From: a virus
Direction: 5' to 3' (one strand)
IMG/VR virus record: IMGVR_UViG_3300025603_000025
Span: 1 to 46,606 of that record
Length of the DNA stretch: 46,606 bases
The notes beneath the pieces are model-generated. The model had not been told where the DNA came from. It was given only the letters and a program-made list of their open reading frames with translations, and made no database searches. Each line of letters begins with the position of its first letter. The stretch's first letter is position 1. Positions 1 to 46,606 of the stretch are shown here, piece after piece. The translations under genes were made by a program, and so were the position numbers.

Positions 1-90
1 ACAATATGTTGGGAGATTAGGTAGCCAAGATGGTGGGAAATTATTAAGTACCAACCAGCCCACCACTGGTTATGGTATTCTAATTATATA
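1..90. other. non-coding left edge
   Basis: No gene is supported here. A weak 6-bp stem-loop (AACCAG at 53-58 with CTGGTT at 66-71) lies just beyond the stop of the leftmost minus-strand gene. There is no good U-run on the minus strand, so it is not called a terminator. Confidence 0.4.
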
Positions 91-2490
91 TTACTTCTTA
101 GAAGCGGCTAAGCCTTTTCCTTTAGTTGGTTTCTTTGGTTTAGCTGGTCGTTTATTTACTAAACCACCTTTAGCCATACCACCAGCAGTGGAAGGACCAA
201 ACCCATCACCATTATTACTAATATTACTTCCACCTCCTGTATTACTTTGAGAAGATCCAGCAGGACTAGCTGGAGTGTCTGCCATTGCGTTGTAACCGGG
301 AGTGTTATTAAAGTTATCATTTACAGCAAAGAAAGCATCCAACGAAGTTGTGTTATCAACGGAGGATGCTGCGTTTGCCGCTGCCACTGCTACATCAGTT
401 GGTGTTGCTCGCGAATTAGAGGACACTTCTTGTGCGGCAGCTTGAGCAGCTGCTACCGCTGCCGGACTATATCCTGCATTTCCTAATGTGGTACCAATAG
501 ATGCATTGTTAGAGTTGATACCTTTTTGTGTGTTAGGATCTACAAAGGCTTTGTAGGCAAGCGCTGTTAAAGGTGCAGGTATTCCAAAAGCTTGAAGACC
601 AAGAACAATAGCACCTTTAACAGCTGGACTGCCAAATGGTGTTGCTTGTAAACCGCTGTTAACGTTAACACCTTTTGAATTGACGGAGCTAAAACCATCT
701 GGAGCATTATTTTGATTATTAGGTGAAGTTGGAGAATCTGATGTCTCGCCATCGTTGCCTTCATAGTTGCCACCACTGTTTAGAATAGTAGATTTATCAA
801 CTTCTTTTGCCGCTGCTTCTTCTTCAGCTTTCTTAGCTGCTGCGTCATCAGCTTCCTTGCCAATGTTCTTAGCTTCAGACTCATCAACCTCTTCATAACC
901 ATCTGGTACGGCAGTCATAGGCTTACCATTAATGTGAGTGATGAACATCACCCTACCTTCATTATTCTTAAAGAAGCGGATATCCAATACTGGGTTCTTT
1001 GGTGCCTTACTCATGTCAGTGCCACTAACGAAACCACCTGAAGCAAACCCTTGCTCTTGGTCAACCTCACCCATGATGTTGTCAATGTCGGCTTCAAAGT
1101 CGCCACTGTCTTCTTCGTCATCAAATGATTCGTCACCGAATGCTTCGTCAGGGTTAGCAACTTCATCAGCATTACCAACTTGACCAATGTCTTCCATACG
1201 GGCTAACCCTTGTTTAGCCTTGTCACGAATAGCCATCAGCTTTTCTAAACCAATGTATCTAACTACGTCAGCAGGGATGACAAACTCACCCTCGCTAAGT
1301 TGTGCAGGGATATCATCAGCAACTTCGTTAGCCATACTACCAGCTGGAACTTCAACACCATTGACAACTTCACCGCTGTCATCCATCATGCCGCCGTCAG
1401 CAAACATCTTCATCTGGTCATTCATAGCTACACCTCCCTGTGCAAATCTTTTTTTATACATAACATTGGCTCTTCTACCACCCATATCATCAGCAGAACC
1501 GCTAAATGTTAAGTTGGAATCTTTACCTGTATTAACTTTGTAAATAGCAGAAATACTATTTATATCTTTACCTTGTTTGGGATTTACGTTTTCTAAATCG
1601 ACAGACAGGTTGCCTATATCAGTTCCTAGTCTAGAAGTTTTAGATGATGTCTTATTTGAAAAACCACCAAGAGTTTGTTCACCGAGAGAAGCGAGTCCTT
1701 GAGAACTTGAGAAAACTTTCTCAATACCACCTCTAATATTCACACCATCAAACAACTTTAACTGACCATCAATAGCAACACCAACTCTCTTTCCGCTTTC
1801 ATCTAAGATCACGCCGTCCTCATACTTCATTGATCTAGAAGATTCAGAAGAAGACATTGATGATTTTAAGTATTGAGAATCATCTCCAGCGGTATATGAA
1901 GCTCTTGCTTCATAATCTGATCCTGAAGATCCACCTGAAGATTGGTAGTCGTATGACAAACCTTTTAATGGATTCTCTTCAGGTATCAAACCACCTTCTG
2001 CAAATTGCATATTGTTTGATTGTTCAGGCTCTGAATCAAACATCTCTGTTGGCTGAATCAATCCAGCATCAACCATATCCTTAAGTTCATCTTTTGAATA
2101 TTCAACACCATCGTATACGGATTGAGCGGTAGCCCATCTACCGTCTTCCATTTGAAATGTTGTAGATGCTTTATTAGCTTGCTGTACGTTACCGTCTCTT
2201 CCATAGTTTGTAGGAGCATTTGCCCCGCCAGCATCAGATTTTCTTACAGCATCATCTACAGCTTCTGTAATGGAACCAAACGATTTATATTGCTTTCCTG
2301 TCTTCAATACATTATCAACAGCCTCATCTTCAGAAACAATTTCACCCTTCCATAGAGAAGGGATGTTTGTGGGTCTGCCCCCATTAAGTCTGCTATCAGT
2401 GACAGTAATACTTACCTCACTCATATCTCTTCCATCAGTATCTTTAACTACAGGAAGACCATCATGAGTTTTTAAATTATTTTGACCCAT
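91..2490 (-). CDS. large virion structural protein, glycine-rich
   Basis: 799 residues from Met at 2490; an in-frame Met at 2499 is the alternative, and both overlap the upstream gene. The N-terminus (about residues 20-48) carries a segment with the core RLNGGRPTNIPSLW that I recognise from marine and freshwater podovirus virion proteins. Near residues 390-420 lies a second conserved block, with core DDIPAQLSEGEFVIPADVV. Short FA(E/D/Q/S)GG motifs recur through the chain, the middle is very acidic, and the C-terminal tail is lysine-rich. It follows the portal in transcription order, where scaffold or head-assembly proteins usually sit. A virion or assembly role is inferred from position and family resemblance; no enzymatic domain is seen. 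Confidence 0.75.
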   Translation of the reverse strand: MGQNNLKTHDGLPVVKDTDGRDMSEVSITVTDSRLNGGRPTNIPSLWKGEIVSEDEAVDNVLKTGKQYKSFGSITEAVDDAVRKSDAGGANAPTNYGRDGNVQQANKASTTFQMEDGRWATAQSVYDGVEYSKDELKDMVDAGLIQPTEMFDSEPEQSNNMQFAEGGLIPEENPLKGLSYDYQSSGGSSGSDYEARASYTAGDDSQYLKSSMSSSESSRSMKYEDGVILDESGKRVGVAIDGQLKLFDGVNIRGGIEKVFSSSQGLASLGEQTLGGFSNKTSSKTSRLGTDIGNLSVDLENVNPKQGKDINSISAIYKVNTGKDSNLTFSGSADDMGGRRANVMYKKRFAQGGVAMNDQMKMFADGGMMDDSGEVVNGVEVPAGSMANEVADDIPAQLSEGEFVIPADVVRYIGLEKLMAIRDKAKQGLARMEDIGQVGNADEVANPDEAFGDESFDDEEDSGDFEADIDNIMGEVDQEQGFASGGFVSGTDMSKAPKNPVLDIRFFKNNEGRVMFITHINGKPMTAVPDGYEEVDESEAKNIGKEADDAAAKKAEEEAAAKEVDKSTILNSGGNYEGNDGETSDSPTSPNNQNNAPDGFSSVNSKGVNVNSGLQATPFGSPAVKGAIVLGLQAFGIPAPLTALAYKAFVDPNTQKGINSNNASIGTTLGNAGYSPAAVAAAQAAAQEVSSNSRATPTDVAVAAANAASSVDNTTSLDAFFAVNDNFNNTPGYNAMADTPASPAGSSQSNTGGGSNISNNGDGFGPSTAGGMAKGGLVNKRPAKPKKPTKGKGLAASKK

Positions 2491-44204: not shown

Positions 44205-44450
44205 TTAAGGCTGTTCTGGAGTAACCCAACCTTCTACCGCCGCCCAAGCACCATCATAGGTGTACTTATGACCATACCACTCTTCGGGAGATGTAACGTT
44301 AGAGTGTAAGGTTGTGTTAGTGCTATTACAGTCGCTAATGATGAACTTAGGGGGGGCTCCTACTGTAATGTTTGTATCCGTAATGTCTAGAACTTCCTCA
44401 TCCTCAAAGATGTAGATGCTGACGTTGCTTAAGTTAGTTAGAGTTTTCAT
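44205..44450 (-). CDS. small tail-associated protein, copy B
   Basis: 81 residues, nearly identical to the 84-residue protein at 46134-46388 (shared NITVGAPPKFIISDCNSTNT core). Starts one base after the stop of the repeat tail protein. Recurring pairing with that tail gene suggests an accessory or assembly factor, by context only. Confidence 0.7.
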   Translation of the reverse strand: MKTLTNLSNVSIYIFEDEEVLDITDTNITVGAPPKFIISDCNSTNTTLHSNVTSPEEWYGHKYTYDGAWAAVEGWVTPEQP

Positions 44451-44451
44451 G

Positions 44452-46137
44452 TTATCCCTTGATGATTAATTTAGTTGCTGAAAGTGCCGTACCCGCTAGC
44501 ACTGATATAGTGTCGGCTGTCGTTGCTAATGTACCGTCTCGTTGTACGTAGTATGCTGTACCTGCTGTAAGGCTAGATTGTGCGTCATCTACAGAGCCTA
44601 CGGTTTGAATAGTTGCTGTCGCTGTGTCGGAATAAATTGCATCAGAAATACCAATGTAGTTAGTAGCTGTTAGGTTGGTAGAAAAGGAAGCATTCTGAAA
44701 CACCACGCTTGTTCCATAATCAGAGTTACCCTCATCCGTATAAGCAATAACTACTTTCTGTGCATTAGCATCATATGTTGCTGATATGTATTCACTACCA
44801 GCACTTTCAAATACAACAGCAGTGCCAAACGATATGCTTGTACCACTTACAGTCCCTACAATAGCTGTACCATAACCAGAGTTACCATTATCCCTATAAG
44901 CAATAACTACCTTCTGGGCATTAGCGTCATATGTTGCTGATATGAAGTCACTAGTAGCGCTCTCAAATACAACAGCAGTGCCAAACGATATGCTTGTACC
45001 GCTTACAGTTCCTACAATAGCTGTACCATAATTAGAGTTACCAACATCCCTATAAGCAATAACTACCTTCTGGGCGTTAGCATCATATGTTGCTGATATG
45101 TTGGTACTATTAGCACTTTCAAATACAACAGCAGTTCCAAACGATATGCTTGTACCACTTACAGTCCCTACAATAGCTGTACCATAATTAGAGTTAGCAT
45201 TATCCCTATAAGCAATAACAACCTTTTGGGCGTTAGAGTCATATGTTGCTGATATGTAGTAACCACTAGCGCTTTCAAATACAACAGCAGTGCCGAAGCT
45301 AATACTTGTACCGCTTACAGTTCCTACAATCGCTGTACCATAACTAGAGTTACCACCATCCCTATAAGCAATAACAACCTTTTGGGCGTTAGCATCATAT
45401 ATTGCTGATATGTAGTCACTAGCAGCGCTTTCAAATACTACAGCAGTGCCAAACGATATGCTTGTACCTGAAACAGTTCCAACAATCGCTGTACCATAAT
45501 CAGAGTTACCACTATCCCTATAAGCAATAACAACCTTTTGGGCATTAGCGTCATATGTTGCTGACATGTAGTTACTTTGAGCGCTTTCAAATACTACAGC
45601 AGTGCCGAACGATATGCTTGTGCCGCTTACAGTCCCTACAATAGCTGTTCCATAATTAGAGTTACCAATATCCCTATAAGCAATAACTACCTTCTGGGCG
45701 TTAGCATCATATGTTGCTGACATGTAGATACTACTAGCGCTCTCAAATACAACAGCAGTGCCTATATCTTGAGTTACAGATGACCCAGCCACAACACTTA
45801 CAGTACCATCAGCGTTGACAACAACTAAGTCACCATTAGCTAAAGCACCTGATGCTGTCGCTGTAGCCACACCCGCACCCGGAGCTGCCGTTTCCCAAGT
45901 CGCATCTCCGTAGGCATCCGAAGTAAGCACCTTTGCTGCACCAGCACCTGTAGTGATTTTCACCGCAGTCATTGTCTGCTTGTCGGTGAAAGTGTTAGCC
46001 GCTGTGGATGCAACTGTTGAGCCAATGTCAGCATCAACTAAGATAGTGGCATCGTAGGCTTGTACATTAACACCAATGTCAGCGTCAACAACACCAGTGG
46101 CTGCTGAAAAGTTAGCTAAGTCTCTTGCTTTACTCAT
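44452..46137 (-). CDS. repeat tail protein, probable seven-bladed propeller
   Basis: 561 residues from Met at 46137 (ATGA overlap with the small upstream gene); the longer frame to 46185 is rejected. N-terminus MSKARDLANF with ADIGVNVQAYDATI-type motifs is usual for aquatic phage tail or fibre proteins. Residues about 125-490 are seven 52-residue repeats with core SATYDANAQKVVIAYRD, each able to form a four-stranded blade. The C-terminus ends LSATKLIIKG as in other tail proteins. Receptor binding is inferred. Variability is confined to a few fixed positions. Confidence 0.78.
   Translation of the reverse strand: MSKARDLANFSAATGVVDADIGVNVQAYDATILVDADIGSTVASTAANTFTDKQTMTAVKITTGAGAAKVLTSDAYGDATWETAAPGAGVATATASGALANGDLVVVNADGTVSVVAGSSVTQDIGTAVVFESASSIYMSATYDANAQKVVIAYRDIGNSNYGTAIVGTVSGTSISFGTAVVFESAQSNYMSATYDANAQKVVIAYRDSGNSDYGTAIVGTVSGTSISFGTAVVFESAASDYISAIYDANAQKVVIAYRDGGNSSYGTAIVGTVSGTSISFGTAVVFESASGYYISATYDSNAQKVVIAYRDNANSNYGTAIVGTVSGTSISFGTAVVFESANSTNISATYDANAQKVVIAYRDVGNSNYGTAIVGTVSGTSISFGTAVVFESATSDFISATYDANAQKVVIAYRDNGNSGYGTAIVGTVSGTSISFGTAVVFESAGSEYISATYDANAQKVVIAYTDEGNSDYGTSVVFQNASFSTNLTATNYIGISDAIYSDTATATIQTVGSVDDAQSSLTAGTAYYVQRDGTLATTADTISVLAGTALSATKLIIKG
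44700..45775. repeat. seven tandem 156-bp repeats in tail gene
   Basis: Period exactly 156 bp: the AACAGC marker ends at 44820, 44976, 45132, 45288, 45444, 45600 and 45756. Units are nearly identical apart from clustered variable codons. The repeats could recombine or confuse assembly. Confidence 0.9.
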
Positions 46138-46388
46138 GGTTGGCCTTCTTGAGTAGGTGACACCCAACCTTCTACCGCAGCCCAAGCACCATCATAGGTG
46201 TACTTATGGCCACACCACTCTTCAGGAGATGTAACGTTAGAGTGTAAGGTTGTGTTGGTGCTATTACAGTCGCTAATGATGAACTTAGGGGGTGCTCCTA
46301 CTGTAATGTTAGAAGATGTAATGTTCACCGCTTCACCGTCTTCAAATAAATAGATGCTGACGTTATCTGTGTTAGTTAGAGTTTTCAT
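46134..46388 (-). CDS. small tail-associated protein, copy A
   Basis: 84 residues, paralogue of the 44205-44450 protein; shares a 4-bp overlap with the repeat tail gene downstream. Begins two bases after the stop of a partial tail gene, repeating the same tail/small-protein order. Confidence 0.7.
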   Translation of the reverse strand: MKTLTNTDNVSIYLFEDGEAVNITSSNITVGAPPKFIISDCNSTNTTLHSNVTSPEEWCGHKYTYDGAWAAVEGWVSPTQEGQP

Positions 46389-46389
46389 G

Positions 46390-46606
46390 TTATCCCTTGA
46401 TGATTAATTTAGTTGCTGAAAGTGCTGTACCCGCTAGCACTGATATAGTGGCGGCTGTCGTTGCTAATGTACCGTCTATTTGTACGTAGTATGCTGTACC
46501 TGCTGTAAGGCTAGATTGTGCGTCATCTACAGAGCCTACGGTTTGAATAGTTGCTGTCGCTGTGTCGGAATAAATTGCATCAGAAATACCAATGTAGTTA
46601 GTAGCT
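46390..46606 (-). CDS. partial tail protein, C-terminus only
   Basis: Open frame running off the right edge; 72 codons seen, ending in the same LSATKLIIKG tail. DNA over 217 bp is nearly identical to 44452-44668. It is the C-terminus of a second repeat tail protein whose body lies outside the window. Confidence 0.8.
   Translation of the reverse strand, partial: ATNYIGISDAIYSDTATATIQTVGSVDDAQSSLTAGTAYYVQIDGTLATTAATISVLAGTALSATKLIIKG

Follow-up and report, generated by a model that had tools for sequence, protein, structure and literature searches.

A seven-bladed beta-propeller with hypervariable loops, predicted to share one face, in a probable phage tail adhesin

The WD40 propellers of fungal HNWD proteins are built from repeats that evolve in concert, and in each repeat four positions on the interaction face are under positive selection (PMC4986451). 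Beta-propellers that are highly repetitive, having been amplified from single blades, are known across life, viruses included (PMC9218822). In marine phages, host-recognition genes located in metaviromic islands differ among otherwise near-identical phages (PMC3909814), and the adhesins diversified by diversity-generating retroelements (DGRs), such as Mtd of BPP-1 and the tentaclins (PMC10743442), display a hypervariable surface for host recognition on a constant scaffold. The viral gene described here belongs with the highly repetitive propellers in that its near-identical blades are predicted to close a ring, and like the DGR adhesins it combines a constant scaffold with hypervariable positions.

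The window, that is, the whole stretch of DNA analysed, is an entire IMG/VR virus record of 46,606 bases, which also encodes portal, terminase, endolysin, DNA polymerase and ribonucleotide reductase proteins. The propeller gene consists of a short tail-fibre-like N-terminus, seven blades of 52 aa and a C-terminal domain, and is flanked as follows.

44205..44450, minus strand: 81-aa gene, function not assigned, 3' of the propeller (open reading frame; family D2)
44452..46137, minus strand: propeller gene, 561 aa (open reading frame, repeats, AlphaFold model and Foldseek matches)
44452..44676, minus strand: C-terminal domain, 3' of the propeller (weak phrog_13371 match)
44677..44832, minus strand: blade 7 (repeat alignment; final 8 residues divergent)
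44833..44988, minus strand: blade 6 (repeat alignment)
44989..45144, minus strand: blade 5 (repeat alignment)
45145..45300, minus strand: blade 4 (repeat alignment)
45301..45456, minus strand: blade 3 (repeat alignment)
45457..45612, minus strand: blade 2 (repeat alignment)
45613..45768, minus strand: blade 1 (periodicity of 156 and repeat alignment)
46134..46388, minus strand: 84-aa paralogue of the 81-aa gene (open reading frame; family D2, 90% identity)
46390..46606, minus strand: C-terminal part of a second propeller gene, lying upstream and truncated by the window end

The small 81/84-aa gene is thus duplicated along with the propeller gene in the window, and it also lies 3' of the propeller genes in the related records L003, L005, L006, L007 and L008. 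Positions 1-127 and 8652-8770 of contig L009 match window positions 1-127 and 46488-46606 exactly, and this contig probably supplies the remaining ~8.5 kb of the same virus. Since L009 bridges both window ends, the phage is probably ~55 kb long and carries a tandem pair of propellers in its tail-fibre region. L009 encodes a major head protein, a tail protein and an open reading frame of at least 1173 aa in which tail-fibre PHROG matches are followed by a seven-bladed propeller; the second propeller gene, truncated in the window, is seen there as a tail-fibre stem joined to seven blades. PHROG matches likewise place a tail-fibre stem upstream of the propeller in L005, so that these fusions, together with the head and tail genes of L009, link the propeller to the tail module.

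The preliminary description of this locus had recognised seven 52-residue repeats in a tail protein, and the DNA repeat period of 156 on the minus strand of gene 44452-46137 bears this out. Mean identity among the seven blades is 86%. In the AlphaFold model (pLDDT ~97 across the blades), the repeats are a closed seven-bladed beta-propeller and no fibre. Foldseek matches to this model are beta-propellers, with the seven-bladed Photorhabdus PLL/PHL lectins among the top PDB matches, along with sialidases and WD40 proteins. Among 127 related proteins with at least six detected repeats, seven is much the most frequent count and some have 14, as expected if they form one or two seven-bladed propellers. 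One scan confirmed at least 567 propeller relatives. Two scans of bacterial and archaeal genomes in the genome_contigs collection confirmed none, and no meaningful relative emerged when PDB sequences were searched with phmmer and with profiles. Matches to Pfam and NCBIfam families (Vwaint, DUF1923, Anillin, MakE, tautomerase) were short or weak and were judged to be repeat-composition noise. The cultured Lentibacter phage vB_LenP_ICBM2 (L059) encodes distant propeller relatives (28% identity) in three places of its record; they are annotated as hypothetical and sit among genes called tail assembly chaperones.

Variation in the blades is concentrated at a few codons. All 28 codons listed earlier for four variable positions are exact, and the third base is indeed constant in 25 of them; the three exceptions (CAA, GAA and GAG) each change the amino acid. 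The pattern exceeds chance: in the window, the pairwise difference at bases 1 and 2 is 0.63 at these four codons versus 0.018 in the framework, in which the AAC codon singled out previously is constant in 7/7 repeats. The four positions are real, but the set was incomplete: across 48 internally similar related proteins (344 blades), the columns of highest amino-acid entropy are 12, 14, 15, 32, 34 and 38, which adds columns 15 and 32. According to the DSSP strands of the model, columns 12, 14 and 15 fall in the D-A connection, between strand D and strand A of the next blade, and columns 32, 34 and 38 surround the B-C turn, whereas the A-B and C-D turns are far less variable. Standard propeller topology puts the D-A and B-C connections on a common face, so all six hypervariable columns would share one face of the propeller. 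Their loop neighbours G35, N36 and S37 are conserved among related proteins. The window clade (13 proteins, 90 blades) has 89 distinct six-codon combinations among its 90.

Strong selection acting on exposed loops, one of two causes put forward at the outset, is supported by these data, given that the sites map to connections predicted to lie on one face and that bases 1 and 2 of the variable codons change more than four-fold silent sites do in 46 of 48 proteins. The pairwise differences within proteins are 0.577 for the former and 0.338 for four-fold silent framework sites (Jukes-Cantor ratio 2.4), values that are descriptive, since blades recombine, with parsimony counts being approximate. 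The count by codon position across relatives, which had been proposed as a check, again places third-base change below base 1 and 2 change. The former amounts to 0.385 of the latter, and 0.20-0.40 is expected from nonsynonymous opportunity alone; selection on amino acids thus accounts for roughly the asymmetry seen between codon positions. Third-base constancy holds in the window, but the view that it is peculiar to variable codons does not, as the framework drifts equally across relatives: in the 48 proteins, the variable codons have a pairwise T/C third-base difference of 0.188 and the framework one of 0.197. The apparent signature mostly reflects code degeneracy together with a silent-site freeze specific to one clade.

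Whole propeller alleles and single blades are also exchanged, as indicated by swapped alleles, likeness that is independent of blade position, and near-identical blades in divergent paralogues. Between L005 and L007, nearly all 200-nt segments of the ~2.5 kb upstream are 100% identical, whereas the propellers are 82-88% identical; of their 42 hypervariable codons, 39 encode a different amino acid, and the framework carries 58 silent differences. Identity between the window and L003 is 98-100% along ~2.2 kb downstream and 83-92% for the propeller itself, a pattern similar to that of L008 and L009, while L007 and L008 have one propeller in common and unrelated upstream DNA. Blades of different proteins are as alike at unequal positions (0.66) as at equal ones (0.66). 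Paralogues whose C-terminal domains are only 35-50% identical, with saturated silent sites, yet possess near-identical blades. In two recently copied blade pairs, the copy ends near columns 39-42 and the differences inside it fall mainly at hypervariable codons. A recent copy within one propeller is seen in L013 (2655-4229) and in L014, where blade 2 equals blade 6 across the compared region. Some chimeras are possible in metagenome assemblies of repeats. Selection against recombination between blades was tested and set aside, identical runs not being shorter within proteins than between them, at 25.4 against 23.6 nt (p 0.25).

Taken together, the gene probably encodes a receptor-binding adhesin, a propeller on the phage tail shaped by diversifying selection and blade exchange. 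The seven-bladed ring would form the tip of the tail apparatus that contacts the receptor, and some six hypervariable residues per blade would display ~42 variable side chains on one face of a constant scaffold. Ordinary mutation would supply the diversity and strong diversifying selection at the hypervariable residues would drive it, while recombination redistributes it by swapping whole alleles between otherwise identical phages and by copying blades or part-blades among positions and paralogues. This explanation leaves one feature of the window clade unexplained, namely the freeze of silent sites in two blocks (islands) of ~30-36 nt each, columns 11-20 and 28-39, which contain the hypervariable codons.

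Silent variation in this clade amounts to 0.038 for the blocks versus 0.282 for the linkers (p 2e-5), and none of 41 shifted masks matches the observed contrast; for the window gene alone, the values are 0.000 and 0.311. The block edges are abrupt and coincide with the loops, and the linkers drift, including the middle linker between the two blocks. Among 246 proteins, the silent block/linker ratio is 0-0.35 for the 13 proteins of the window clade and L102 and centres at ~1 for the rest; L187:762 also has a low ratio, but its blades are divergent and it was left out of the clear cases. A reverse pattern, with block silent variation exceeding that of the linkers (ratio 1.9-2.7), occurs in L064, L066, L077, L078 and L080, as expected of old exchanged alleles. 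The frozen third bases of the window clade differ from those of L102, and such clade-specific states speak against a constraint on codons or RNA that applies universally; they favour re-homogenisation from a sequence particular to the clade. A universal codon constraint is ruled out by these differing states and by the opposite ratio in the L064 group, and an overlapping frame by the free variation of bases 1 and 2 and by the lack of any plus-strand open reading frame of at least 80 aa in this region. With edges this sharp and a middle linker that drifts, the freeze is accounted for neither by simple recency nor by a contiguous template.

One alternative, which we regard as unlikely, is a targeted process, carried by the phage or borrowed, that is not limited to adenines, has no detected reverse transcriptase and rewrites two blocks of ~30-36 nt per blade from a master sequence specific to the clade, keeping silent bases and randomising the first two bases of set codons. 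Low ratios in the 13 clade proteins and L102 against ~1 elsewhere, abrupt edges that no shifted mask reproduces, and frozen states that differ between clades all favour it. Against it, a template and a candidate enzyme were looked for and not found, codon families ending in purine suggest a stepwise history, third-base nonsynonymous change proceeds at about the expected rate, and the unfrozen middle linker does not fit a contiguous template. At least as improbable is recent homogenisation, which amounts to the adhesin explanation plus an account of the freeze: blocks would have spread by gene conversion through the blade pool of the clade and then undergone fast selective re-diversification. 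Both ingredients, blade exchange and selection, are strongly evidenced, and the two copied blade pairs ending near columns 39-42 point the same way. This scheme requires, however, exchange tracts of ~30 nt with identical edges everywhere, and the in-block framework nonsynonymous rate is about equal to the silent rate, an equality that simple recency does not predict.

Adenine-directed mutagenesis by a DGR, the other cause initially suggested, fared poorly. Such a system, acting in cis or in trans from the host or a co-infecting phage, would mutate template adenines and rewrite the blades, and the variable codons are indeed Asn-rich and AAT/AAC-like, with stable third bases and frozen silent sites around them, as template copying would leave them. 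No reverse transcriptase or template repeat had been visible in the window, and the wider search proposed at that time detected neither. A DGR-type reverse transcriptase (PF00078, RVT_1) was found in 0 of 88 records, comprising the window and 87 related ones of up to 208 kb, including the bridging contig L009, in scans that detected the positive controls; template-like copies of the islands, with up to 6-7 mismatches allowed, were found only within blades. Four-fold silent A sites are no more variable than average, differing in 0.289 of pairs versus 0.305 overall, and adenines adjoining the variable codons are frozen at S17, A18 and N36, the third A of the S17 TCA codon being retained in 89 of 90 blades of the window clade. 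Changes in the blades are not confined to template adenines: of five fresh hypervariable changes between recently duplicated blades, two are T/G. Residues encoded by 6-27% of codons per variable column are unreachable from AAY by changes at bases 1 and 2, and CAA, CGA, CGG, GAG, CAG and TGG all occur. A canonical DGR is consequently very improbable. Equally hard to credit is relaxed constraint on exposed loops without selection for change, which such loops are expected to tolerate, in view of base 1 and 2 change that outpaces the four-fold silent sites in 46 of the 48 proteins and of the conservation of the adjoining G35, N36 and S37.

Compared with the DGR adhesins, the propeller has the same stable third bases at NNY-type codons; it differs in having no reverse transcriptase or template repeat, in changing beyond adenines, and in placing the variation across seven repeats of a propeller instead of in a C-type lectin fold. 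Unlike that of the genes of metaviromic islands, its variation is concentrated at set codons of a repeat scaffold. With the highly repetitive propellers of PMC9218822, a paper in which the words "phage" and "hypervariable" are absent, it has near-identical blades in common and additionally keeps a hypervariable face. No description of a phage tail propeller with such a face was found in the literature searched, many subscription papers lying outside its scope. The gene may represent a widespread adhesin scaffold resembling a display library of natural origin, in which a fixed ring of seven blades would carry ~42 variable residues on one predicted face, and the silent-site freeze of its clade poses a testable question, selection alone versus an unrecognised targeted process. 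The closest analogue is provided by the HNWD NOD-like receptors (het-d/het-e) of Podospora anserina, whose conserved repeats evolve in concert within and between family members; as judged from descriptive counts, the phage blades likewise show few fast-changing positions per repeat and concerted repeats. The phage blade has 52 aa and about six variable positions, as against 42-43 aa in HNWD proteins, and belongs to a tail protein and not to a cytosolic immune receptor. Pfam and NCBIfam scans of the propeller gene detected no NACHT/STAND domain with WD40 repeats, so the likeness is an analogy in how the two work, a parallel with fungal self/non-self propellers that may reflect convergence of unrelated systems.
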